Part shown: piece after piece, positions 36,467-49,721 of the stretch
Layout: each line of letters starts with the position of its first letter
Numbering within the stretch: the stretch's first letter is position 1
Assembly: GCA_013044175.1 (NCBI GenBank)
Contig: JABEUY010000009.1
Span: 1-64,000, forward strand
Origin: Bacilli bacterium
Lineage (GTDB): Bacteria > Bacillota > Bacilli > Alicyclobacillales > SLC66
Length of the DNA stretch: 64,000 nucleotides
Direction of reading: 5' to 3'
Notes under the pieces: model-generated
The model's database searches: none
What the model was told of the DNA's origin: nothing
The model's input: the letters and a program-made list of their open reading frames with translations, nothing else
Made by a program: the position numbers and the translations under genes

Positions 36467-38956
36467 ATGATTGGGACTATGAATATACTTAGTTTGATAC
36501 GGTCACAACTTTTAGAAGAATGTATCATCCACATGGAGGAAGCCAATGTTATTTACTTATTGGTTTCTTTTGTGATGCATTCTGGTGTACGTTTACTTAT
36601 GCAAAGTCTCAAGCAAGCCGCCGAGCGCGGAGTCGATATCAAGATACTTACCGGTGATTACTTGTATGTTACCGAACCCGAAGCACTGACACAACTCCTG
36701 CTCATCCACGAGAATCTCGAAATTCGCTTGTGGAAAAGCATGGGCAACTCATTTCATCCCAAAGCGTATCTTTTTCACAAATCCGGTGACCAACATACGG
36801 TGATTATCGGTTCGTCGAACTTATCCGCGTCTGCTTTACAAGATGGTGTGGAATGGAATCTTTCCGTAGCCGGAACGGATGACACGCTTATCTACAACGA
36901 AGCAGAACAACAATTTCTGTCTTTGTTCTATCATGAAAGAACCGTTCCTATCAATCCGATCACGATCAATGATTATCAACAATCTTATGCGAAATATCAT
37001 TTGAAGCATCCTCAGTTGCTTGAAACTTGGCTTTACCTTGAAAACTATCCTGAAATAAACTATCCCCAAGATCCTCAAGCTGACCAATCCTTTCCCGCTG
37101 AAGTTGTCGAAGCAACAGGCACCTATGTGACTACAATTAATCCTCGACCAGTACAACAGGAAGCGCTCGAACAGTTGAGAATCACACAAACAGAAGGCTA
37201 TGACAAAGCACTCGTCGTGATGGCCACTGGACTCGGTAAAACGATTTTGGCTGCTTTTTTTGCCAGAGAATTTAGACGTGTCTTGTTTGTTGCCCATCGC
37301 GATGAAATTCTTCAACAGGCACAACAAGCTTTCAATAAAGTTTCGCCTGATCGAAGCAGCGGTTTTTTTACAGGTCAGGAAAAAAACACAGAAGCAACGG
37401 TTATTTTCGCCTCTGTGTTTACCTTAGCGAGCAAAAGGCATCGCGCCAAATTCGATGCACACGCTTTTGATTTAGTGGTTATCGATGAATTCCACCACGC
37501 CTCTGCCTCGACGTACCAAAGTATCCTGCAAGGATTCCATCCCAATTTCCTGTTAGGTATTACAGCAACACCATATCGTACTGACGGTCGTGATATTTTC
37601 GCACTGTGTGATGGGAATCTTGCTTATAGCCTTGATTTTCTTGAAGCGATTGGACGAGGTTGGCTTGCTCCTTTTCACTATTATGGTGTCTACGATGATA
37701 CGGATTATTCTGCGATTCGTTGGCTAGGCAACGCCTATGATGAAGATGAACTGTATCGAGCTCAAACGCGCAAGACATTGGCTGATGCGATACTAGCTGC
37801 TTGGCGAGAGCATGCGCAATCAAGAGGGATAGCTTTTTGTTCCTCCGTTGCGCAAGCCCAATTCTTGAGCAATCATTTTCAACAACATGGTATCGCCGCT
37901 GATATTCTTCATGGAGGTAGCCCTGCAAGTAAACGTTCACAGGTGATTCAAAAATTAACGCAAGGCGAACTCACTCTTCTTTTTACTGTCGATTTGTTTA
38001 ATGAAGGTGTCGATATTCCTTGTATTGATACGTTATTATTTGTTCGCCCAACGGAATCACTCACCGTATTTGTCCAACAACTTGGAAGAGGATTACGAAT
38101 TCATGAAGGTAAAACACACTGTACGATCATCGATCTCATCGGCAACTATCGAAATGCAGACAGCAAGCTATCCGTTTTTTATAATAATCAACTTGATCAG
38201 CAGCCTCCAGTGCTTCAAGAAACCGCATTAACTGCAAGCGCGTTGCCACTAGGGTGTGAAATGCATCTTGCGACAAAAGTTATCGATTTACTCGAAATCA
38301 TGCGAACAAAAAAACACCCTCGAAAAGCGCTTTTGATCGCATCTTTCCATAAAGTTAAAGCGGATCTTGGTCGCAGACCGACTTACTTAGAAATGCATCT
38401 TCTCGGCTCTTGCGACAGCCGAGAATACAAGCAAGAATATGGAGGCTATTTTCACTTTCTTGCCGAAATCGGTGAATTAACAGAAGCGGAACGTTTAACA
38501 CTTGAATCGATAGGTAGTTGGTTAAGAGAAGTCGAAAGTACAAGTATGTCAAAAGCTTATAAAATGGTGCTTCTTCACGCCATGCTAAGTCGTGGCGAAG
38601 ACAAATGGTTTGAAGTGATCGAACCGACCGAAGCGGCTCTTCCATTTTATGCTTTTTACCATGAAAAGAAATACCGACTACAAATCGATTTCGCGACGAA
38701 AAATCCTGAACAATGGCATGTTTTCAACGAAAAGAGGATGGCTACCCACATCAAGCAAAATCCGATCAAGTTTTGGTCACAATCCAGTCAGGGCTTCGCT
38801 TTTCTTGAAGACGGTAAATTTGGGTTTCGCTTAACGCCAGATCCTGATGCCAAGTCACTTCTTCATGCCTGGACAAGCCAGGTCTGCGAATACCGCCTTC
38901 ACGCTTACTTTGAGCGAAAAGGCGCTACTAAAGAACAATCCATCGATAAAAGCTAG
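36467..38956 (+). CDS. PLD-domain and superfamily-2 helicase fusion protein
   Basis: 829-aa multidomain protein. An N-terminal phospholipase-D-type nuclease-like domain (about 1-160) has HPKAYLF (H97, K99) and GSSNLS (N118). A DEAD/DEAH-type helicase follows: P-loop VMATGLGKTILAAFFA near 250, DEFHHA near 340, a C-terminal helicase domain near 430-570 with the QLGRGLRIHEGK arginine-finger motif. A ~240-aa C-terminal region (DLGRRPTYLEMHLLGSC onward) is found in related helicases. Such proteins occur in repair and defence neighbourhoods. The start could be ATG 36467 or ATG 36479; no strong ribosome site is present. It has neither a partner methylase nor an obvious operon. Confidence 0.85.
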   Translation: MIGTMNILSLIRSQLLEECIIHMEEANVIYLLVSFVMHSGVRLLMQSLKQAAERGVDIKILTGDYLYVTEPEALTQLLLIHENLEIRLWKSMGNSFHPKAYLFHKSGDQHTVIIGSSNLSASALQDGVEWNLSVAGTDDTLIYNEAEQQFLSLFYHERTVPINPITINDYQQSYAKYHLKHPQLLETWLYLENYPEINYPQDPQADQSFPAEVVEATGTYVTTINPRPVQQEALEQLRITQTEGYDKALVVMATGLGKTILAAFFAREFRRVLFVAHRDEILQQAQQAFNKVSPDRSSGFFTGQEKNTEATVIFASVFTLASKRHRAKFDAHAFDLVVIDEFHHASASTYQSILQGFHPNFLLGITATPYRTDGRDIFALCDGNLAYSLDFLEAIGRGWLAPFHYYGVYDDTDYSAIRWLGNAYDEDELYRAQTRKTLADAILAAWREHAQSRGIAFCSSVAQAQFLSNHFQQHGIAADILHGGSPASKRSQVIQKLTQGELTLLFTVDLFNEGVDIPCIDTLLFVRPTESLTVFVQQLGRGLRIHEGKTHCTIIDLIGNYRNADSKLSVFYNNQLDQQPPVLQETALTASALPLGCEMHLATKVIDLLEIMRTKKHPRKALLIASFHKVKADLGRRPTYLEMHLLGSCDSREYKQEYGGYFHFLAEIGELTEAERLTLESIGSWLREVESTSMSKAYKMVLLHAMLSRGEDKWFEVIEPTEAALPFYAFYHEKKYRLQIDFATKNPEQWHVFNEKRMATHIKQNPIKFWSQSSQGFAFLEDGKFGFRLTPDPDAKSLLHAWTSQVCEYRLHAYFERKGATKEQSIDKS

Positions 38957-38957
38957 C

Positions 38958-40319
38958 CTATCTTGTCCTCCCGAGTAGCCATAGCCCATACACCACCATC
39001 GACACGATCATACCAAACAGAAAACCAAGTTGCGCTGTGCCAACTACGGTATCAGCCCACAAGCCGTTACCAAATGGCGTGCTCGTGAAAGCGAGATCGA
39101 CGAGAATGCCGAGAAGCCAAGCAAATAAAGCAGGAAAGCCAAACGCACGCGTTGGGCGATTTTTTTGACCAAAGCGCGTGAATAGACCTTCGATCAGCAT
39201 AATCCCCGCATACGGAGCAAGCGTACTGCCGACCACACTTAAAAAAGATTGTAATGTCGCCAAAAAAGGGCTGTTGCTCAATAAAAAATAAAGACCGATC
39301 GAGCCTGTCAGCACATACTCCACGATCGCGGTATAAGGACGAGCGATGCGCACATGCATCGCTTGTAACGTCAGGCCAGACGAGTAGATCGCAAGGATAT
39401 TTTCGGTGAGGAGTCCGACGGCAGCGGTGATCCAAAAAACAAGGAGCCAGCTTTGCGGAAGACTTGCGCCTAAAAGTGCTAAAGGATTCGCCGCCGTAGC
39501 CAAGGTCGGCAAAGAAGGCGTCAACAACATCCCTGTCACCATGATCACGACCAAGGGAATGGCCGCACCAAGCCAAGTTCGTGAGGCAATTCGCCAGGAA
39601 GAGGTCGGGGCTGGCATATATCTCGTATAGTCCGAAGCGGTCGTCACCCAACTCATGCCCGTGCCAAGGATGATCAACGATACGGCAGGTACGAACCCAC
39701 CAAGCCAAGAAGCGAGATGTGTGTTCCCGATCAGATGTCCTTGACCATGCCCGATAAGTTCGAGAAGAATTGCCAGCGTAGCGACGCCAAAAATCACACT
39801 GATCCACTTTTGGACATAAACGATCGTAGCGTGACCATACAAAGCGACCACAAAGACACTTGCCCCAAGCAGTAGAAAAAGAATCGTCGTCCCTGTTGAA
39901 TTTATCTGAATTTTGAGAATATCATGACACAAGGCGAGAATCGCATCGGTGGCGGTCACCCATATCACCGTTTCCCATCCCAGCAAATTAATCCACCCGA
40001 CAAGTGCGGGAAGTATAGTACCGATCGATCCAAACGGGCGGCGCGTCACGATCAGCATCGGTTCGCCGACGTTTTTACCAAACACGCCAAGTATGCCAAC
40101 GAGCAAAAATGAGGCGCTGCCACAAAGTGCCGCAAGAATGCCTTGCCACCACGTCAGTTGATACGACACGATGATCGCACCATATAGTAAACCGAGAAAG
40201 CCGATATTGGCCGCAAACCAAATCGCAAAAAGCTCGCGCGTCTTTCCATGGCGTTCGCTCAAGCCAACCGCTTCGATGCCACGCTGTTCCACGCGCCAAG
40301 GTTGATCATTACTTTTCAT
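38958..40319 (-). CDS. NCS1-family permease (cytosine/purine-type), B12-riboswitch controlled
   Basis: 453-aa inner-membrane transporter with about twelve hydrophobic segments. The N-terminal KTRELFAIWFAANIGFLG and the later RRPFGSIGTILPAL, GTGMSWVTTASDYTRYMP and NILAIYSSGLTLQAM match the nucleobase:cation symporter-1 family (cytosine permease/CodB branch). ATG 40319 overlaps the 3' end of the AIR-synthase-like gene by 11 bases, with GGAGG in that gene as ribosome site, so the two are translationally coupled and both lie under the cobalamin riboswitch. That points to transport of a B12 building block such as a benzimidazole or alpha-ribazole (inference). Confidence 0.85.
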   Translation of the reverse strand: MKSNDQPWRVEQRGIEAVGLSERHGKTRELFAIWFAANIGFLGLLYGAIIVSYQLTWWQGILAALCGSASFLLVGILGVFGKNVGEPMLIVTRRPFGSIGTILPALVGWINLLGWETVIWVTATDAILALCHDILKIQINSTGTTILFLLLGASVFVVALYGHATIVYVQKWISVIFGVATLAILLELIGHGQGHLIGNTHLASWLGGFVPAVSLIILGTGMSWVTTASDYTRYMPAPTSSWRIASRTWLGAAIPLVVIMVTGMLLTPSLPTLATAANPLALLGASLPQSWLLVFWITAAVGLLTENILAIYSSGLTLQAMHVRIARPYTAIVEYVLTGSIGLYFLLSNSPFLATLQSFLSVVGSTLAPYAGIMLIEGLFTRFGQKNRPTRAFGFPALFAWLLGILVDLAFTSTPFGNGLWADTVVGTAQLGFLFGMIVSMVVYGLWLLGRTR

Positions 40320-41115
40320 CACAAGCCTCCAGATCCCCCAGCCATACGCTAGGTAGTTGTGCAATTACTACTTGAAATTGTGGATTTTGCGAGAGTCTAG
40401 CTCCCGACACAAGCAACGCCGTCGCAGGTCCCGCCGATTTCGTGAAGATCGGTGCAAGCTCAACGGTTGTGATCAAATCTTTCGGACGAAAACGCAGTTT
40501 ATCCGTCGTTTCTGCCAACATCATCGCTTCCGCAAGTGCACCGCGCGAGCCGATCGGCAAGACCTCATGGACCGCCGCAAGAGCAAACAATTGTTGTACA
40601 TGTGAAAAAGATACATGCGTCGAATCCTCTCGCAAGACTTGATCATGCGGTGCGCTTTTGGGCACCCCGATTAACCAAACTTCATCGTCGACGCACGATG
40701 TTCCCACGCGAAAGGCACTTGGTGCAACCTGACCGATCACAGTGAGACTAAGCGTCGTGACAGGGATAGCGATATTGGTTTCCGAGCTACCTGTGATCGT
40801 AAAAGTAGGCGGCAAGGCCGCTTCGGCAACCGCGTCACGAATCCCAGTCAGCATCCGACGAGCATACGCATGCTCTTTCGGATCACCACCACTCATCGTA
40901 TCGATCAAAAGCATCGGCGTCGCACCAGACGCGATCAATTCCATCAACGCCACACGCGCTGTAAAGTAGCCCACCTCCTCAGGTGTCGCCCGCGCTTGGT
41001 CGAACGCAAGTTCGCCAATGCCAACCAGATTATCGGTGGCGAACACCAACCACTGCTCGTTCGCTAAAGGCCAAACGGTCAGATCGCGCATCGTCATCGT
41101 AGGTTTCAAGGTCAT
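40309..41115 (-). CDS. PurM/AIR-synthase-like ATP-binding protein, candidate alpha-ribazole kinase (CblS-like)
   Basis: 268-aa protein of the AIR-synthase/ThiL/SelD superfamily, which binds ATP through N-terminal acidic residues. FATDNLVGIGELAF and VGYFTARVALMELIASGATP are typical of the dimerising N-domain, and ITGSSETNIAIPVTTL of the C-domain entry. ThiL-like members phosphorylate small molecules. Its position behind a cobalamin riboswitch and terminator, coupled to a permease, suggests it phosphorylates a cobalamin precursor, as proposed for CblS in Listeria and Geobacillus; assignment is by context. ATG 41115 follows AAAGGGGGGTGG closely; the frame is open further upstream, but through the terminator. 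Confidence 0.78.
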   Translation of the reverse strand: MTLKPTMTMRDLTVWPLANEQWLVFATDNLVGIGELAFDQARATPEEVGYFTARVALMELIASGATPMLLIDTMSGGDPKEHAYARRMLTGIRDAVAEAALPPTFTITGSSETNIAIPVTTLSLTVIGQVAPSAFRVGTSCVDDEVWLIGVPKSAPHDQVLREDSTHVSFSHVQQLFALAAVHEVLPIGSRGALAEAMMLAETTDKLRFRPKDLITTVELAPIFTKSAGPATALLVSGARLSQNPQFQVVIAQLPSVWLGDLEACDEK

Positions 41116-41135
41116 CCACCCCCCTTTTTTGTCCA

Positions 41136-41174
41136 AAATAAAAAGATCCTCAGCACAAAAACGCTGAAGATCTT
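41136..41174 (-). terminator. Riboswitch expression-platform terminator
   Basis: A 12-bp stem (41143-41154 with 41163-41174, one G-U pair), 8-nt loop, is followed on the minus strand by TTTTATTTT. It lies between the cobalamin aptamer and the AIR-synthase-like start, so binding of cobalamin would be expected to stop transcription. Confidence 0.85.
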
Positions 41175-41209
41175 GCCATAACCTTCTTCCAAGCCTATCC
41201 ATCCCCGAT

Positions 41210-41385
41210 AGGTGGTTGTGTAACACAATCAGCAGGTCTCCTGACTACCGCGTCAACGCTCGATGTATTTCCTTCCCAGTCTCCCAGTGAAAATACGGCT
41301 CGACGGCTACAGTGGTGGGCACCGTGTCTTTTCAGACTTCCCTATTCTTCGCGAAAACTCGCGACACTGATCACGCACTATGCGA
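41210..41385 (-). promoter_or_regulatory. Cobalamin (B12) riboswitch aptamer
   Basis: On the minus strand the order AATAGGGAAGTC..GAAA, GGTGCCCACCACTGTAG, CACTGGGAGACTGGGAAGG and finally AGTCAGGAGACCTGC (the B12 box, 41232-41246) reproduces the cobalamin riboswitch core. The core GCCACTG appears as ACCACTG. Boundaries are approximate. It is followed by a terminator and then the AIR-synthase-like gene. Confidence 0.88.
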
Positions 41386-41466
41386 TTCTATTCATCCTCT
41401 ATGCCTCGTAAACAACGACCTTATCCTAGCGAACGTACGATTGGATTGTCAAGTACAAATGAGAAG

Positions 41467-44400
41467 CTAGAACAACTCTTCTTGCGTAATGCCTCCAGTA
41501 AGGCGAACGATTCGATCCAACACCTTGGGATCCAGATCACGAAAATACGCATGAGAAATATGGTGAATCGGTTCAACAATTTGTTTCCCTCTTCCAGAAG
41601 CGGCAACCCGCAGTCGACAACTATACACAATCGGGAAAAAATCCTCAAGAAACTTTCCTTCAACGTGCGCCGTCAAGGTAATCAACTGAAAGCCCAGTTG
41701 TTCGGCAATATAAAAGACCGGCGTCAACACATGATCACTAGAAGCTTTTCCAAAGGGGTTGTCCAAAAGCACAACGCGATGCGTCTTCATTGTACTTTGA
41801 ATCGGTTGTCGTTTCTTAGCTACATAATTCAAGATACCAAGAAACAAGGTCATATTCTTACTCCACATCTCACCGCCAGACCAGCGATTCGACTCTTCCC
41901 AAGAAAATGAAGCTGAACTCACTTGCTGTTCATTCGTCACTTTACGACAACTGATTCGAATCTTAGCCCCTTGCGGCATGATTTTTTGCAGTAATTGGCG
42001 ACTGTCAAACCACTTCTCCAGATCTTTTCGCACCAGTTGCGCATCTTCTTTGCCCGATGCATCACGATACTTCGTCTGACTTACTTGGGTTACGATCCAA
42101 TCGATATGATCGCGGATTCTCGCTCGACCTTCCGGTTCATTCCAAGTAGGTATTTTAAATTCAAAGATATCCTTGCTACCTGTAGCCGTACGCACACGAG
42201 TGCTTTTCGGCAACTCTTTCATTTCATCGACGATCATCATCATATGATCTTGTATATGCCTTATGAATTGTTCCAGCTTAGTATTTTCCGTTTGTAGCTG
42301 TTCCTTCATCACTTGAATAGCGTTCGTCAATCGTTTATCGATAAGATCAACAAATCCCAAAAGATCTTGATAATTTTCTACCGTTTCCACACCACGCTCA
42401 GCCATTTGTTGTAACCGTACATCATGAATTTCTCGTTGGCAAAATCGATTAAATTCGCGTAATTTTTTCGACTTAATCTCAGTTTGCTTATCAAAGACGT
42501 CTCTTTGCTCCGATAATTGTTGTATCAATCCCTCGCTTTGCTCTTGCAAATGATAACGGATCGTTTGTTCTTCTTGCTCGCTTATCGTAACGATGGTAAG
42601 AAGCGGATGATCCAATTGATGCTTTCCCATGATCTGATCCCACTGTTTACTCACTCGTTGCATGATTTCGATATTTTCTTCATTTTTACACACTAAGCGT
42701 TCACATTCCTCACGACGCTTATCTAGATGCTTCCTTTCTTCGTTAAGTACGACTGTGATTGTATTCAATGGTTCAGCAAAAACGATCATCGTAGCATCCT
42801 CATATTTTTTATGAAACTCATCGATAAGTACCTGGATCTCGCCAGCTTTTCGTTCACACTGCTTCTCTTTTTCATGCCAACGTTGATTGATTTCCTGCTC
42901 TTGCATTTCCTTATTTTTAACATCCATCACCGCATCGTCAATTTTCTTGTCAACATGCGTAGGAAATTGAAGATCGACATTGAGCTTAGGTTCCTCGACT
43001 TGTAAATTCCGCATCGTATGAGTTGCTTCTTTTTCTTGAGCGTGCAAATCCTGTAATTTACTCTCTAGCGCAGTTTTTTCTTGCATAATTCCAAGTCGCT
43101 GTTCCCGAAGTGATTCACGCAATGTAACTAATGCGCTATAAGGCATGTTCGTCTCGATGGGCAGCTCGTCTTCCACTTCCTTGAAAATATCGCGATCAAT
43201 CAAAGAACTCTGCTCCGATTCGCAAGACGCTTGCTGTTTGGCTATAGCAATCTTTTGCTCCTGAAGCTCTTCAAGTCGTTGCTCAATACCCTTGATTTCC
43301 CGCTCTACTTTATCGATCTGATCAGACAATAATCCGCTTTTTTGCAAAAGCTCTTGTCTTTTTCGTGTGATTTTTTGATATTCTTTACCATCACGAATAC
43401 AAATATTGGTATGGAGCATTTGTTGCGAAAGTTGCTTGTCCTCCTCATTCATCTTTTCAATCCCGCGTTCAGTCTGCAGCAACTCTTTATCAATTTCTCC
43501 TAGACGTCGTTCACTACGATCACACTTTTTCTGAATTTCTTTGTACAGGCTATCTTGTTCACTCACGACACCCAAAGGATATTGCATCAAAAAATCATCC
43601 AGCACCTGTAAAGCATCTCGCCAGCGCTTGCATTCCTGTTCCGCCATACTGCGTTCATTCTTAGCCTTTTGGGCAATCTGATTGACATGGATTTTCCAAC
43701 TTTCGAACCTATCCCTATAGGGTGAGATGGCAAAATGGGCAGGTTCTATCCACGAACGATTTTCCCATTCAAGTAATGGACCCGTGTTTTTCAAAATAGC
43801 TTGTGCTTCTTCGATCGTTAGGATGCGAATCGGAAATGATAGTAATTCTGCTTTCGCTAAGAGTTTGTCCATGAGTGCGTCTTTTTCTTTTTCCAACGTC
43901 ACGAGTGTTATCGCCCATAATCGAGCTTCGGTCAAAGGCTGCTCCCACGAAGAGATAAATTCAACACCTGTCTGTAACAACGTAAATTGATCACGCCAGT
44001 CATTGACCCATTTCATCACTTGCGGGTCAGCAAAAAATTCCTCTTGCTTTTCGTAATCATCAACATAACGAAAGGCGAGCCTTTCTTGATAGGCTAGCTC
44101 GTTATAGTAGTTATCTTTTTGATCGATCCCTTCATGCAATAATGAGAATATCGTGTCTTTCGTCTCATGAACAGAAGGTAATCGCTCCCATTCCTCCTTG
44201 CACAAAGAGAGCGTATGCTTCACTTTCACGAATGTTTTTTGATAATATTCTTGCCAACTTCGACATTCCGTCGCTTGCACATGTAACTGCTTATTTTCCT
44301 CTTCAAGTACAACCCGTTCTTGTTGCCATTGTTCTTTCTGTCGAATCGCTTCTTTTTTTAAACTTTGTAATTCTGCTAAGCGTTCTTCTTCTTGGATCTG

Positions 44401-44559
44401 CGCATGACACCAGATTTCCATTTGCTGATCAATCGATTGTACCTGTTTGTTTCCCAAAATATTCATAGCGATCGATTCTTGCTGACTCTCTAACATTTCT
44501 TGCTCTTTCCTATGCGATTGCAGCGAACCTTTCAACGCATCTCTTTCGTTATTCATCAT
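41467..44559 (-). CDS. jetC: JetC/MksB-like SMC ATPase, C-terminal part (frameshifted from 44549-45913)
   Basis: 1030-aa frame holding most of the coiled coil and the C-terminal ATPase half of an SMC-like protein. It has dense heptads from the start to about residue 850, the ABC signature NRWSGGEMWSKNM and Walker B VVLLDNPFGKASSD near the end. It lacks a P-loop, which lies in the preceding frame. The two frames overlap by 11 bases at ATGATGAATAA, and the join lies beside an A6 run at 44571-44576: one A fewer would fuse both into a protein of about 1480 aa. The gene may be broken, rescued by slippage, or made as two chains. ATG 44559 has no good ribosome site. Confidence 0.82.
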   Translation of the reverse strand: MMNNERDALKGSLQSHRKEQEMLESQQESIAMNILGNKQVQSIDQQMEIWCHAQIQEEERLAELQSLKKEAIRQKEQWQQERVVLEEENKQLHVQATECRSWQEYYQKTFVKVKHTLSLCKEEWERLPSVHETKDTIFSLLHEGIDQKDNYYNELAYQERLAFRYVDDYEKQEEFFADPQVMKWVNDWRDQFTLLQTGVEFISSWEQPLTEARLWAITLVTLEKEKDALMDKLLAKAELLSFPIRILTIEEAQAILKNTGPLLEWENRSWIEPAHFAISPYRDRFESWKIHVNQIAQKAKNERSMAEQECKRWRDALQVLDDFLMQYPLGVVSEQDSLYKEIQKKCDRSERRLGEIDKELLQTERGIEKMNEEDKQLSQQMLHTNICIRDGKEYQKITRKRQELLQKSGLLSDQIDKVEREIKGIEQRLEELQEQKIAIAKQQASCESEQSSLIDRDIFKEVEDELPIETNMPYSALVTLRESLREQRLGIMQEKTALESKLQDLHAQEKEATHTMRNLQVEEPKLNVDLQFPTHVDKKIDDAVMDVKNKEMQEQEINQRWHEKEKQCERKAGEIQVLIDEFHKKYEDATMIVFAEPLNTITVVLNEERKHLDKRREECERLVCKNEENIEIMQRVSKQWDQIMGKHQLDHPLLTIVTISEQEEQTIRYHLQEQSEGLIQQLSEQRDVFDKQTEIKSKKLREFNRFCQREIHDVRLQQMAERGVETVENYQDLLGFVDLIDKRLTNAIQVMKEQLQTENTKLEQFIRHIQDHMMMIVDEMKELPKSTRVRTATGSKDIFEFKIPTWNEPEGRARIRDHIDWIVTQVSQTKYRDASGKEDAQLVRKDLEKWFDSRQLLQKIMPQGAKIRISCRKVTNEQQVSSASFSWEESNRWSGGEMWSKNMTLFLGILNYVAKKRQPIQSTMKTHRVVLLDNPFGKASSDHVLTPVFYIAEQLGFQLITLTAHVEGKFLEDFFPIVYSCRLRVAASGRGKQIVEPIHHISHAYFRDLDPKVLDRIVRLTGGITQEELF

Positions 44560-45913
44560 TTTGAGATCGATTTTTTGATCCCTTTTCTGCTTTCTCTACG
44601 TCCGATATGCTTTGCAAAAGCGCTTTTACCCGCTCATCAAGACGTTGTTTTTCCCGCAAGAAGTATGCCCTAAGTTGTCCTGCGTTGGTCTTCCAAGCTA
44701 CATCAAGCTCCTCTTGCTCTTGTGTTTTATCCAAATCGGCGAGTTGTTGCTTCAAGATTTCAATCTTACAGCGAAGAGAACTTTGTTTTTCTTTCTCCTT
44801 CGCATATTTTAAGGAATCTCTATAGCGTTTGGCCGTTAGTAACTCTTCATGACAAATTGACTTTTTCTCGGTGAGCTCAGCCAATTCTTCCGACCATTGA
44901 TTTTCATTTTCTTTCTCTTTAGCGATAGAGAGTGTATCACGTTTCTGATGCCATACAAGATCTTCTTGTTGCCAAACTCCTATCTCTGCCTCTAATCGCT
45001 TCTTCTCTTGACGAAAGTCATTATCGATACACTCCACGAACGAACGGAATGCTTTCCCTTTTCGTCGCATGAGATCATACTGCTCTTTGGCATCATGAAG
45101 ATCACGATAGACTTTCACATACTTGTCTAATTCTTCACGTACATGTTGGTTTTCTTCAATCGTATCTCGCAGTTCTTTTGTTCGTTGAAAACCTTCTCGC
45201 TGCGCGACGAACATCTTGGTAAACTGTCCTTGCTCATGCCCGCTCATCGATTCCTCAATCATGGGAATTAACAATCGATCAACCAATTGCGTCGACGTCT
45301 TACATTCACTAAAAAACTGTTCAATGCCCCCTTCATTGGCATTGATTTTAGCAATCGCTTGCCATTCTGAACTGATGATCTGATAGTTCTCTTCAAGATA
45401 GAGCTGATATTCTTTTATCGTGGCAAAAACCTTTGCCTTTAAGGGATACTTTTGTTGCATTGAATGGTAATACTCTTGGATTTCTCCTCGATCTGTTACC
45501 CTTTTAAGTCCATTTTCCATATCCTTAGTTAACGGGATTTTAGCAATATCATGGTCATCCTTTTCGCTATACGTATAGCAATATCGCAACGAATCAAGAC
45601 CGGTCGAACTCATGAACAGACTCACACAAGTCACGAGATACTGTCGCTTCGGTTTCGTCGCGATGATCCATTCTATCGCGATATGTGCCGGACCATTTTC
45701 GAGCGTCAACGTATCTTTTATCTTTCGTCCTGCGACATCAGCATGAGGTAATACTGCTTGAATCGCGGCCTGGATAAAAACCGTCTTACCACCACCGTTT
45801 TCCAGAACAAGCGCACTATTTTGTCCTTCAAAGATAAACGTAGAGTCGGTATAGCGTTTCGCACCGCCTTCATAAACCACATTGGTAAAGCGAATTCTTG
45901 CCATTGACGGCAT
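44549..45913 (-). CDS. jetC: JetC/MksB-like SMC ATPase, N-terminal part
   Basis: 454-aa frame with the N-terminal head of a MukB/JetC-type SMC protein: P-loop LENGGGKTVFIQA at 37-49, then a coiled coil from about 220. Together with the downstream frame it gives a full SMC ATPase that would extrude DNA loops in a Wadjet/Mks complex. The start ATG 45913 has AGAGGG seven bases upstream and lies one base after the jetB stop. It ends at a TAA reached by a frame change beside an A6 run. Confidence 0.82.
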   Translation of the reverse strand: MPSMARIRFTNVVYEGGAKRYTDSTFIFEGQNSALVLENGGGKTVFIQAAIQAVLPHADVAGRKIKDTLTLENGPAHIAIEWIIATKPKRQYLVTCVSLFMSSTGLDSLRYCYTYSEKDDHDIAKIPLTKDMENGLKRVTDRGEIQEYYHSMQQKYPLKAKVFATIKEYQLYLEENYQIISSEWQAIAKINANEGGIEQFFSECKTSTQLVDRLLIPMIEESMSGHEQGQFTKMFVAQREGFQRTKELRDTIEENQHVREELDKYVKVYRDLHDAKEQYDLMRRKGKAFRSFVECIDNDFRQEKKRLEAEIGVWQQEDLVWHQKRDTLSIAKEKENENQWSEELAELTEKKSICHEELLTAKRYRDSLKYAKEKEKQSSLRCKIEILKQQLADLDKTQEQEELDVAWKTNAGQLRAYFLREKQRLDERVKALLQSISDVEKAEKGSKNRSQNDE

Positions 45914-45915
45914 CG

Positions 45916-46662
45916 TTATTCCCTCTTTTCGCTCCTTGAATCGTAACTATAGAGAAATTCCAAAATTCCACGGTTATATTCTCTCTCCATAAAATATCTT
46001 CCTACGATAATCTTCGTCGTATCGGTCAATGCGAGTTCATTAGCGCCAATTTGCACGAGAAGATTTTGATCAACCAAAAATTTACGTACCGTATCGAGAA
46101 AACTTAAGCGACTGATCGTCAGACCACTTTGTTTTTTTGCTGTCTCTTTCACATCATCCATCGCATCCCATTTCTCGATGATATCAGCAAAGTGATAAGC
46201 ATAATCCTGACTTTGTTGCTGTAGCGTCTTTTCATCGTGCGACCGTAAAGCATCGATACGCAGTTGTACCGATGTCATCCAGTCTTCGATCGTGAGAAAA
46301 TTACGGGTCGGTTCCATGGTTTGATAACTGTCATAAAATGCACCGATGAGAACGATGATCGTCATGTACATCAGATATAGATCCGCATTGACGGCGTTAT
46401 TGCGTAACGCAATTTTTTTGAGAGACTCATTGCTCATGTGAAACGGCGATAAACGTACCAACGGTACGAGAAGTAAGCGATCACCCGTACTTACAACAAC
46501 GCTATCGACTTCCGTCACAAACTGATCAAGTAGACCTCGGACGCGATCATCCGCCTCCACAGTACGTACACTTTCTTGATCTGCATACCCTTGTGTAGAA
46601 AGTTGTACATAGATCCGAAAGGCTTTCATGATATCTTCATGATGCTCATGCATCGACTTCAT
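45916..46662 (-). CDS. jetB: JetB/MksE-like subunit of the SMC complex
   Basis: 248-aa protein in the position and size range of the kite subunit (MukE/MksE/JetB). It is helical at the N-terminus, with probable winged-helix segments at the C-terminus (FLDTVRKFLVDQNLLVQIGA, TTKIIVGRYFMERE). No direct family match is recognised by eye, so the assignment rests on gene order and size. The start ATG 46662 with GGGTGGTGA overlaps the end of the 94-aa gene by 17 bases. Translational coupling of the whole operon is evident. Confidence 0.7.
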   Translation of the reverse strand: MKSMHEHHEDIMKAFRIYVQLSTQGYADQESVRTVEADDRVRGLLDQFVTEVDSVVVSTGDRLLLVPLVRLSPFHMSNESLKKIALRNNAVNADLYLMYMTIIVLIGAFYDSYQTMEPTRNFLTIEDWMTSVQLRIDALRSHDEKTLQQQSQDYAYHFADIIEKWDAMDDVKETAKKQSGLTISRLSFLDTVRKFLVDQNLLVQIGANELALTDTTKIIVGRYFMEREYNRGILEFLYSYDSRSEKRE

Positions 46663-46930
46663 TCACCACCCGTATCTTCATATCTTGAAGTAAAAATCGT
46701 TCATCTATGTTTAAAATTCGATCTACTTCTTCGACGATGAGCGTCCGTCCCTGTAAGAGACTTCGTAGCGCACCATAAAGATGTGCTTCTTCCTCTGAGG
46801 TCATTTCATGCGCGGAAACTGGCGTTATCGGACTTTTTTGATGAAGAATGATCCAACAAAAATAAAATTCACGGGTGCCTAACCATGCTGATCTCGACGC
46901 TTCCTGCCAAGTAGCCATCCATTCACTCAA
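46646..46930 (-). CDS. 94-aa protein embedded in the Wadjet-like operon, unknown
   Basis: Small protein not recognised. It has aromatic-rich residues 1-35 (WLGTREFYFCWIILHQ) and an acidic, helical remainder (SEEEAHLYGALRSLLQGRTL, VEEVDRILNIDERFLLQDM). It starts at TTG 46930, which overlaps the jetA stop (TTGA), and ends 17 bases inside jetB. The overlaps at both ends argue that it is translated as part of the operon and is not noise. It could be an extra kite/kleisin-binding subunit or regulator. Standard four-gene Wadjet descriptions do not include it, as far as I know. Confidence 0.65.
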   Translation of the reverse strand: MSEWMATWQEASRSAWLGTREFYFCWIILHQKSPITPVSAHEMTSEEEAHLYGALRSLLQGRTLIVEEVDRILNIDERFLLQDMKIRVVNEVDA

Positions 46931-48144
46931 TAAGGTCTCTTGGACCGAATTGTGATGAAGATACCGGAAAGCGCCTCAAGAATGCTCGTAAAATGAATAA
47001 CACGCAATGCCAAAAAATCACTTTCACTTGCTTTTTCGCCCATGATCTCCATGGGACTGGTCACGTTTCTTTCTCCCTCTTCACGATTCATTAAGGGCTG
47101 TTTGGCAAAAACAGTGAGTAGCGACCAGGTCTGCACCTGTTCAAGAGGAAGAAACGGAGCGACGACCGCACGAAGTGCCTCCGTCGGCAACGGAGTACTT
47201 ACCAGATATGAAACGATATCTTGATCAAAGTTAAAAGCATTCAACCCTGAGTAATACAATGATTCTCTTGCCGCTCGTAAAGCTGTATTCTGCAATTCCG
47301 TGCATTGAAACAACAACTCGCTATGTGCGTTATGAACATTTTCCAAAGCAAGCGCAATTTTAAAAATCAAAGCATAGGGACGTTGATCGGTCTGGTGTTC
47401 TCGTTCAGCATAATAATGATCTTGCGTTTCGCGTACAAACTTACGTAGCTCGTTAAATTCATCATTTTCACGCTCAAGGCGATGGATAATATCTTCAATC
47501 AAGGCTTGGTACCGTCTTAACGTATCTTCTGACACGATACTGCGTTTGATCTCATGTTCTACGGTGACGATGCGTTCTTGAAGTGACTCCACGTCAATAC
47601 GCATCTCATCGATTTGACGTAGCGCAAGGTGAAACTCCCCTTTTTCTAATTGTTTACGTAACAAAAGTTGATGAATGGATAATTGAAACTCCACATAAAA
47701 TTCTTTGGTTGCAAAAATCAATGCCAGTCCATCTTCATCGAGCGCATAATATTGCGTATTCGTCGCTATGTCATAAGAATCTGTTTTTAAGATCGAACTG
47801 TATAGAATCACTTCTTGTTTTTTCTCAAAATGATAGAAGGGAAATTCTCGTTTTTTCCCTGAAGAAGGACGAAAAACCTGAATGATTCGCCTCCCTATAT
47901 TCTCCCACTCTTCTGCTTCCAGATCATAAATATCGGATAACGAAGTCGAAAGATACTCGCTTAAATCTTTAACACTCGTCTTATGACTTCGCATCAATTT
48001 CTGCTCAAAGAAAAACAAAAGTGTCAGAAGGCCAAGTTCCATCATAGGCATGGCATTACCTTGTTGGTCGGTTCGTTTCTGTCGGGCAAGTTCAAAAAGC
48101 GGATCAAACAGTGCAAGCTTTCCCATTCGTTCATCAAAACCTGC
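46927..48144 (-). CDS. jetA: JetA/MksF-like kleisin subunit of the SMC complex
   Basis: 405-aa mostly helical protein, in the position of the kleisin (MukF/MksF/JetA) of bacterial Wadjet complexes, which bridges the SMC heads. An N-terminal helical domain (LFDPLFELARQKR, LGLLTLLFFFEQKLMRS) is followed by a central charged coiled coil (about 195-270) and a helical C-terminal domain. ATG 48144 was chosen because it overlaps the jetD stop by 11 bases and the conserved-looking domain begins there; the frame itself is open to 48285. The subunit role is inferred from gene order, size and coiled-coil content. Confidence 0.7.
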   Translation of the reverse strand, partial: AGFDERMGKLALFDPLFELARQKRTDQQGNAMPMMELGLLTLLFFFEQKLMRSHKTSVKDLSEYLSTSLSDIYDLEAEEWENIGRRIIQVFRPSSGKKREFPFYHFEKKQEVILYSSILKTDSYDIATNTQYYALDEDGLALIFATKEFYVEFQLSIHQLLLRKQLEKGEFHLALRQIDEMRIDVESLQERIVTVEHEIKRSIVSEDTLRRYQALIEDIIHRLERENDEFNELRKFVRETQDHYYAEREHQTDQRPYALIFKIALALENVHNAHSELLFQCTELQNTALRAARESLYYSGLNAFNFDQDIVSYLVSTPLPTEALRAVVAPFLPLEQVQTWSLLTVFAKQPLMNREEGERNVTSPMEIMGEKASESDFLALRVIHFTSILEALSGIFITIRSKRPY

Positions 48145-49288
48145 CATGAGATCCGGTAAGGAAAAAGATACATCTACTCGTCCCACGTAAATTCCTTTCG
48201 ATACGAACCAATTCCTCACGCTTAAGCGTTTCTTGGGGAATGTAGTGATCTTGTAACAGCATGCTTGTGATTTTATCCGCGTCATTCTCGGGAAATTGAG
48301 AAGTAAAAGCCTGCAAAGCTAGCTCATGCTTTCGCTGATTTTGTTTACCTGGTGTAGATGTTTTAGCAAGACAAGCACGATAAAACGGTATCGCCAGCAA
48401 AAGAGTAAAGTGAGCACCTTGGTTTCTTCGCTCTTTCGTTTGATCCTCTGATTGCGACGAATGGTGGACGTGAAATTTCTTATGAAGATCATGCCAAATC
48501 GCAATTCCTTCACGGTCGAGGTCTCCAAAATAATAGAGCGTTGTTGAAGATGTTTTTACAGGATATTGGTAGGGGAGCATGTCTAGGTTGCCTACAATTT
48601 TACGACCTGAGCCATAAATAACTGTAGTGAATGGAAGAGAAGGCAGATCCGTCATAAGCGCTTGAAAAGTCGTTTTATTCTCTACGATCAAATGACGCTG
48701 ATGTTCATTTTCCGAAGGGATTTTGGGATTAATCGCGAACATGAGTGGATCACTGACGGGGATCATGTTCATTTTTTCAACAAGACCTAGTCTTTCAAGA
48801 ACTGCATGACCGCCTCGATCAGTAATCCATTTCTCATCTTGAACAAGTTCATAACTTCGTTCAGGCGCAGGCGCAGGGATCTTCGGCCAATCATTCGTTT
48901 TTAGAAAAGCATCGATTTTTTTAATGTAAGGAAGGTCAGATTGAAAAATTTCTTGGTGCAAACCATAATAGGTTGCTAAATGAAGTTCTTTATGTAAAGT
49001 AGCACCTATTTGATGAAGCGTTCGAAAGTATTCCTCTTGCAATTTACTTTTATGGATTCGATATTGATAAGCAAGAGATACCCGTTTTCCAGTACGGCCA
49101 TGCGCTTTAACGGGTTCAAGGATCCCTTCTGTTTCAAACGCCAAAATCGCATGAGCAAACTGATCCTCAAGTACACGAGGCTGTAACTCCGGTGCTATAG
49201 AAATCGCTTCTTCAAGTTCAGACAAATTAATCTTTGCTTTCGAATAGGTACATAGATAATGAATAAGAATTTGTCGAATTTCCATCAT
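48134..49288 (-). CDS. jetD: JetD-like Toprim nuclease subunit of the Wadjet-like system
   Basis: 384-aa protein with an N-terminal winged-helix-like part and a C-terminal Toprim fold related to topoisomerase VI. RHLIVENKTTFQALM carries the catalytic Glu and YYFGDLDREGIAIWHDL the DxD metal motif. In Wadjet systems JetD cleaves DNA captured by the JetABC motor, so small plasmids are removed. It is the first gene of the operon here, whereas jetD is last in the commonly drawn arrangement. The start was taken as ATG 49288 (or 49285), with AGGT five bases upstream. Confidence 0.85.
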   Translation of the reverse strand: MMEIRQILIHYLCTYSKAKINLSELEEAISIAPELQPRVLEDQFAHAILAFETEGILEPVKAHGRTGKRVSLAYQYRIHKSKLQEEYFRTLHQIGATLHKELHLATYYGLHQEIFQSDLPYIKKIDAFLKTNDWPKIPAPAPERSYELVQDEKWITDRGGHAVLERLGLVEKMNMIPVSDPLMFAINPKIPSENEHQRHLIVENKTTFQALMTDLPSLPFTTVIYGSGRKIVGNLDMLPYQYPVKTSSTTLYYFGDLDREGIAIWHDLHKKFHVHHSSQSEDQTKERRNQGAHFTLLLAIPFYRACLAKTSTPGKQNQRKHELALQAFTSQFPENDADKITSMLLQDHYIPQETLKREELVRIERNLRGTSRCIFFLTGSHGRF

Positions 49289-49721
49289 AGTTACCTGCCA
49301 TGTTCTACTAGCTTTTCGATGCCTTACTCTATGCCTTTTTCTTCGCATTCTTGGTAGATTACTTGCGCGATTTTAGGCAATGTAGTGAACTCGGCCAGCT
49401 TTGCTGGCCATCGAAGAGAGGACACGGGAGTCTAAAGGATTCTTCGATCAAAAACTCTTTTCAGGTTTTTTCGTTGTTCATCATTTAATTTTTCATCACC
49501 GTATCCCTGATTCCTTCAGTATACCTTACCAGTATTAAGGTGCCAATCCTGCTCGATCCACCTTTTTGTTCGATCAAAGGAAGCAAGTTCACTTTTTACC
49601 TCCATTTTAGATGGTAAATGCCAAAACGAGCCGTTGCGTTTATTTCGTTTATTTCATATAATTTGATTACCTAATGGGAAAAATAAACATGCAGGATAAA
49701 AAATAAGAAAGGGTGTTCCAA
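49289..49721. other. Intergenic region upstream of jetD and the antitoxin gene
   Basis: About 430 bases without a gene. It has a perfect 7-bp hairpin with a 3-nt loop at 49393-49409 (GGCCAGC/GCTGGCC) and a longer-range TCGAAGA/TCTTCGA pair nearby. Both divergent operons must have their promoters here; I could not pick convincing -35/-10 pairs. Confidence 0.45.

Follow-up and report, generated by a model that had tools for sequence, protein, structure and literature searches.

A two-gene unit in an acidophilic member of the Alicyclobacillales is probably a B12-repressed module for salvage of the cobamide lower ligand, in which a permease of the NCS1 family stands in the place of CblT, next to a CblS-like kinase, and CobT is bypassed. 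The core of this reading, namely a lower-ligand salvage module with NCS1 replacing CblT, is well supported, and the substrate that we infer is alpha-ribazole rather than a free base. The pathway and the kinase family are already known from CblT-CblS salvage of alpha-ribazole, reportedly in Listeria innocua and Geobacillus kaustophilus (Gray and Escalante-Semerena 2010 and Mattes and Escalante-Semerena 2017, as cited by others), and what is likely new is an importer of an unrelated family.

In the proposed mechanism, scarcity of cobamide would cause the riboswitch to let transcription pass the terminator, the polarity of this switch being presumed. The permease would then import alpha-ribazole, which is the nucleoside of DMB, or another alpha-riboside like it, with both substrate and direction predicted, and the CblS-like kinase would convert alpha-ribazole to alpha-ribazole phosphate. 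Finally, CobS would join this phosphate to a CobU-activated corrinoid, so that CobT is bypassed.

Layout of the locus and its surroundings

The unit lies within a 64,000-nucleotide stretch of DNA that was analysed as a whole (the window). All of its elements are on the minus strand, in the following order:

41423..41452, minus strand: promoter-like site TTGACA-18-TAGGAT upstream of the riboswitch (a consensus scan match only)
41214..41386, minus strand: cobalamin riboswitch aptamer (RF00174; cmscan, 72.8 bits)
41143..41174, minus strand: intrinsic terminator serving as expression platform between the aptamer and the first gene (14-pair hairpin, then TTTATTTT)
40309..41115, minus strand: cblS-like gene for a 268-aa protein of the PurM/AIRS fold, a predicted kinase of alpha-ribazole (start ATG at 41115; Pfam AIRS, 37.2 bits)
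38958..40319, minus strand: gene for a 453-aa NCS1 permease, predicted to import alpha-ribazole or a different lower ligand of B12 (start ATG at 40319; Pfam Transp_cyt_pur)

The aptamer matches the full RF00174 model (positions 1–189; E 5e-16) well above its gathering score of 31.5 bits, and the start of the NCS1 gene overlaps the upstream cblS-like gene by 11 bases. A sequence-only reading of the window had described a riboswitch, a terminator, a PurM/ThiL-like gene, an NCS1 gene and this overlap, and all were confirmed in place. The same two-gene order recurs at 10 other loci of the order, with identities of 34–62% for the permease and 33–54% for the kinase; chance adjacency of the two genes was therefore rejected.

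Directly upstream of the riboswitch unit is a Wadjet-like type III system (41467–49348, minus strand), in which JetB3 and JetC3 were recognized by PADLOC. Two ORFs upstream of these (46927–48285 and 48134–49348) occupy the positions expected for a putative JetA and JetD. JetC3 itself comprises two ORFs (44549–45913 and 41467–44559) that overlap by 11 bases and match successive parts of the profile (positions 1–447 and 451–1470), so that it appears to carry a frameshift or to be produced as two chains. Convergent with the permease gene is a plus-strand gene (36467–38956) whose 829-aa product combines PLD-like, ResIII and helicase C-terminal domains and has “type IV methyl-directed restriction enzyme” as its best PADLOC match. 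Together with the Wadjet-like genes, this protein hints that the B12 module is surrounded by a defence island.

Families of the kinase and the permease

On sequence grounds, the 268-aa protein is a member of the CblS family, not a ThiL, and is predicted to be an alpha-ribazole kinase. In a tree with two confirmed ThiL proteins (337 and 315 bits) as the outgroup, a 100/100 branch parts both of them from all CblS rows, including that of the window; a repeat of the tree left out one row (L053_OUT) that represented a wrong ORF. The CblS side also holds Listeria and Lactiplantibacillus homologues. The window kinase shares 28% identity over 85% with a Listeria monocytogenes protein that starts a CblS-CobU-CobS-CobC run, and 32% over 85% with the protein in the CblS position on L. 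plantarum plasmid pMF1298-5, which carries a CblT-CblS-CobS-CobC operon (PMC6722938). Since the ThiL model TIGR01379 gives only 24.4 bits against a cut-off of 184 and the tree splits ThiL off, identity as ThiL was rejected. The sequence-only reading had pointed to CblS and ThiL as the families to compare, and it is with the CblS proteins of Listeria and L. plantarum that the window kinase groups.

Fifteen positions are invariant in 43 CblS sequences, of which the window kinase is one, and all are kept in it (D28, G34, D39, V55, E59, E112, N114, G150, P152, G189, S190, G192, E196, G229 and P230). An alignment of all 20 kinases held no usable stretch, and one of seven sequences was usable. The AlphaFold2 model of the kinase (pLDDT 94.6) has a PurM-superfamily fold, and its best Foldseek matches (SelD, ThiL, HypE, PurL and PurM) are about equally distant at 10–17% identity. 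A search of PDB sequences with the kinase profile gave no matches, and a single-sequence search of the genome contigs with the window kinase found no relatives.

The downstream protein is an NCS1 permease, with 134.8 bits to Pfam Transp_cyt_pur (PF02133; cut-off 23.5). Its model (pLDDT 86) has a LeuT-type fold for which the best Foldseek matches are Mhp1 and CodB (TM 0.70–0.82). The same two proteins were reached among PDB sequences by the NCS1 profile, and a search with the single permease gave no matches there. The window permease is like Mhp1 (hydantoin) and CodB (cytosine) in family, in fold and, by profile alignment, in keeping the tryptophan of TM3 (W115). It is unlike them in its low identity (17–18%), in a small residue that the profile alignment puts at the place of the TM6 aromatic, in its link to B12 and in its predicted substrate. 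In CodB the base is sandwiched by Trp108 and Phe204, and in Mhp1 by Trp117 and Trp220. By profile alignment, as opposed to structure superposition, the TM6 aromatic falls on position 221, where every B12-linked or nucleoside-linked permease has a small residue (G, S or A), as do a few NCS1s of other context; to judge from the residues, a ligand of greater size would then fit. Position 306 in TM8 (window numbering), which profile alignment places near the sodium and substrate sites, is Glu in 11/11 CblS-paired permeases and Gln in 3/3 that are CobT-paired or riboswitch-only. Because this pattern largely follows the tree, it is treated as a lead only and is not relied on.

The NCS1 tree gathers every B12-linked permease, along with the nucleoside-linked ones, in a single group (99/98) that is distinct from the order's remaining NCS1s. 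The sequence-only reading had left room for a tight clustering with cytosine transporters, and the window permease stands apart from the cytosine/allantoin-type NCS1s of the order. With its counterpart at locus L031 it forms a 100/100 pair on a long branch, and these two loci occupy a long separate branch in the kinase and permease trees alike. Like CytX and the NCS1s next to thiamine genes (TIGR02358), the window permease is a predicted cofactor-precursor permease adjoining a kinase. It differs from them in its weak score to that model (80 bits; cut-off 310) and in a context of B12, not thiamine.

Outside the order, members of the wider NCS1 group adjoin genes for ADP-ribosylglycohydrolase and PfkB, or for purine nucleoside phosphorylase, or for TenA and ThiD, and no cobalamin riboswitch was found near them. 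Loci with ADP-ribosylglycohydrolase, permease and PfkB presumably correspond to yegT-yegU-yegV of E. coli. Although close relatives of the window permease reside in such nucleoside loci, these differ from the window unit in having no CblS and no detected B12 riboswitch.

CblS partners and cobamide genes in the order

A CblS profile matched 95 of 399 Bacillota genomes. At 89 loci examined across the phylum, CblT adjoined CblS in 82, neither importer did in seven, and NCS1 did in none. The CblT profile, built from ECF S-component proteins adjoining CblS, one of which was verified against Pfam (PF12822), found no CblT in any of the 59 genomes of the window's order that were examined. There, NCS1 is directly downstream of CblS at 11 loci in 10 genomes, with gene ends that often overlap or nearly touch, and several of these loci are inside cobamide-assembly operons. 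The sequence-only reading had called for a survey of NCS1 genes beside cblS-like genes and had NCS1 taking the transporter's place, and within these genomes the survey came out in favour of that idea. At the window locus, likewise, the neighbour of the kinase is an NCS1, where a CblT-CblS module would have an ECF S component. A single origin of the NCS1-CblS pairing, as one clade, was not rejected (AU p 0.545). Within the stretches fetched, a riboswitch was seen at six of the 11 pair loci and not at five.

The operons of relatives place the pair among cobamide genes. For example, in G001 a riboswitch precedes BtuF, BtuC, CobU, CbiB, CobS, an aminotransferase, CblS, NCS1, CobC, PduO and an ABC ATPase; in G009 it precedes CblS, NCS1, CbiP, CobC, PduO, BtuF and BtuC; and in G040 it precedes CbiA, CbiP, CblS, NCS1, CobC, BtuF, PduO and CbiZ. 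A shorter run (riboswitch, CblS, NCS1, PduO, CbiZ) occurs in Alicyclobacillus mengziensis (G053), which, like Alicyclobacillus sp. ALC3 (G054), belongs to the sister family of the window's own within the order. The cobalamin operon of G049 and G054 is longer and encodes a fusion of a NAD-binding domain with CblS, followed by NCS1, CbiP, CobC, PduO, CobU, CbiB and CobS. The fused domain, behind which CblS lies in Alicyclobacillus-type operons (L037 6051–7475, L041 and L051 6118–7545), is of the siroheme/precorrin-2 type (PF13241). The labels BtuF, BtuC, CobC, PduO and CbiA/CbiP were assigned on Pfam domains and gene neighbourhood rather than on equivalog models.

This NCS1 lineage is found in two further arrangements, namely riboswitch-CobT-NCS1 (G032 and G051) and riboswitch-NCS1 (G010, which has CobT). 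In G032, the riboswitch has CobT-NCS1 on one flank and a second, divergent NCS1 (L090 10986–12359, minus strand) on the other. In both G051 and G032, a CblS homologue neighbours an aldehyde dehydrogenase within a locus for phenylacetate degradation (paa; L045 2707–3597, minus strand; L046 4752–5666, plus strand), away from cobamide genes and from the NCS1 that adjoins CobT. Among other CblS-bearing genomes of the order, the locus of G006 is cut by a contig end. The CobT-bearing G003, which has the genus code of Sulfoacidibacillus thermotolerans, holds a CblS remnant of ~78 aa (L227 1477–1707; G003:C31), an apparent loss of the salvage kinase.

The window genome is a 2.54-Mb draft of 156 contigs, 91.6% complete, from a family that includes S. 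thermotolerans (G015). Three cobalamin riboswitches were found in it, ahead of MetE, of NrdA-NrdB and of the cblS-NCS1 pair. Its B12 users are NrdJ and one 1168-aa B12-binding protein that is MetH-like by size and domain; in view of these, MetE and NrdAB seem to be substitutes, repressed by B12, for enzymes that depend on it. The pair stands alone in this genome, outside any cobamide operon. Elsewhere, CobS and CobU are adjacent (L088), and the ORF after CbiB (358 aa) appears by eye to be CobD-like (threonine-phosphate decarboxylase). The sequence-only reading had allowed for a complete cobT/cblT route elsewhere in the genome. In this draft, CobT gave no PF02277 match and CblT was not detected with the profile built here, although at 156 contigs and 91.6% completeness their absence is not certain. 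The genome thus has CobS, CobU and CbiB for building the nucleotide loop and no detected CobT, and the one missing activity, alpha-ribazole phosphate synthesis, is what CblS would supply.

Across the order, CobT is also present in six of the 10 pair-bearing genomes, and the pair occurs in the remaining four (G000, G001, G009 and G040) with no detectable CobT. The 100% complete G040, for instance, has CblS-NCS1, CobS and CbiZ and neither CobT nor CblT. Among 102 CobS-bearing relatives, CblS was found in 9/10 genomes lacking CobT vs. 11/92 with CobT (Fisher p 7e-7, with kinship ignored).

Candidate substrates and relation to known systems

Genomes that lack CobT need the nucleoside and not the base, which favours alpha-ribazole for the CblS-paired permeases. 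An unlikely alternative, and the strongest of those considered, is that NCS1 imports a free base (DMB, benzimidazole or a purine) and that the kinase uses alpha-ribazole from elsewhere, such as the breakdown of imported cobamides. Bases are the best-known NCS1 substrates, and a passage of PMC6167548 that summarises Mattes and Escalante-Semerena 2017 has CblT bring in DMB; other work, however, credits the CblT-CblS systems of Bacillota with salvage of alpha-ribazole (PMC4086397). Members of the same NCS1 lineage have the base-using CobT as their partner in G032 and G051, and in the CobT-bearing G010 one follows a riboswitch with no partner gene, yet the four pair-bearing genomes named above have no detectable CobT with which to use a base. 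Also against a free base are the nucleoside-linked relatives inside the same NCS1 clade and, by profile alignment, the small residue at the base-stacking TM6 position of CodB and Mhp1. Since close relatives do adjoin CobT, some members of the lineage may carry the free base, as this context suggests. A tentative extension is that one NCS1 lineage is a dedicated importer of B12 lower ligands that switches partner, with CblS for alpha-ribazole and CobT for the free base.

It is very improbable that the pair salvages nucleosides for DNA synthesis while B12-dependent NrdJ is idle, with NCS1 uptake and a PurM-like nucleoside kinase working alongside NrdAB. The B12 riboswitches ahead of NrdAB and MetE in the same genome and the nucleoside enzymes beside related NCS1s would fit such a role. 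Relatives, however, carry the pair inside cobamide-assembly operons and not nucleotide operons, the kinase groups with CblS, and to our knowledge no PurM-fold enzyme is a deoxynucleoside kinase. Least probable, and already disfavoured, is an ordinary thiamine-precursor or cytosine permease beside a ThiL-like neighbour under a riboswitch without functional meaning, for although the CytX and ThiL models match weakly and two distant permease relatives adjoin TenA or ThiD genes, ThiL is excluded by score and tree, and the pair occurs in 10 genomes, often with cobamide genes and in four with no detectable base-activation gene.

The preferred reading, salvage of alpha-ribazole through NCS1 and CblS, shares with CblT-CblS the kinase family, the pairing of importer and kinase, the link to CobU/CobS/CobC and a B12 riboswitch, and the replacement of CobT. 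It differs in that the window importer is a LeuT-fold NCS1 secondary transporter, not an ECF S component, in an order where no CblT was found. In the open-access literature, no paper was found to connect NCS1 with either alpha-ribazole or cobalamin riboswitches, or to describe an NCS1-CblS pair; judged on that literature, this importer arrangement is likely, though not certain, to be new.

Alpha-ribazole is released into the environment and has been putatively detected in bacterial exometabolomes and in the water of phytoplankton blooms (PMC5643483). The exchange of lower ligands shapes which microbes in a community can use which form of B12, and CblT is the one type of transporter known for the import of alpha-ribazole. 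An additional importer from an unrelated family, if true, would raise the number of genomes in which salvage of alpha-ribazole is predicted, and labels such as “cytosine permease” would be corrected. It would also offer a compact case for testing how the pocket of an NCS1 protein could adapt to a ligand the size of a nucleoside.
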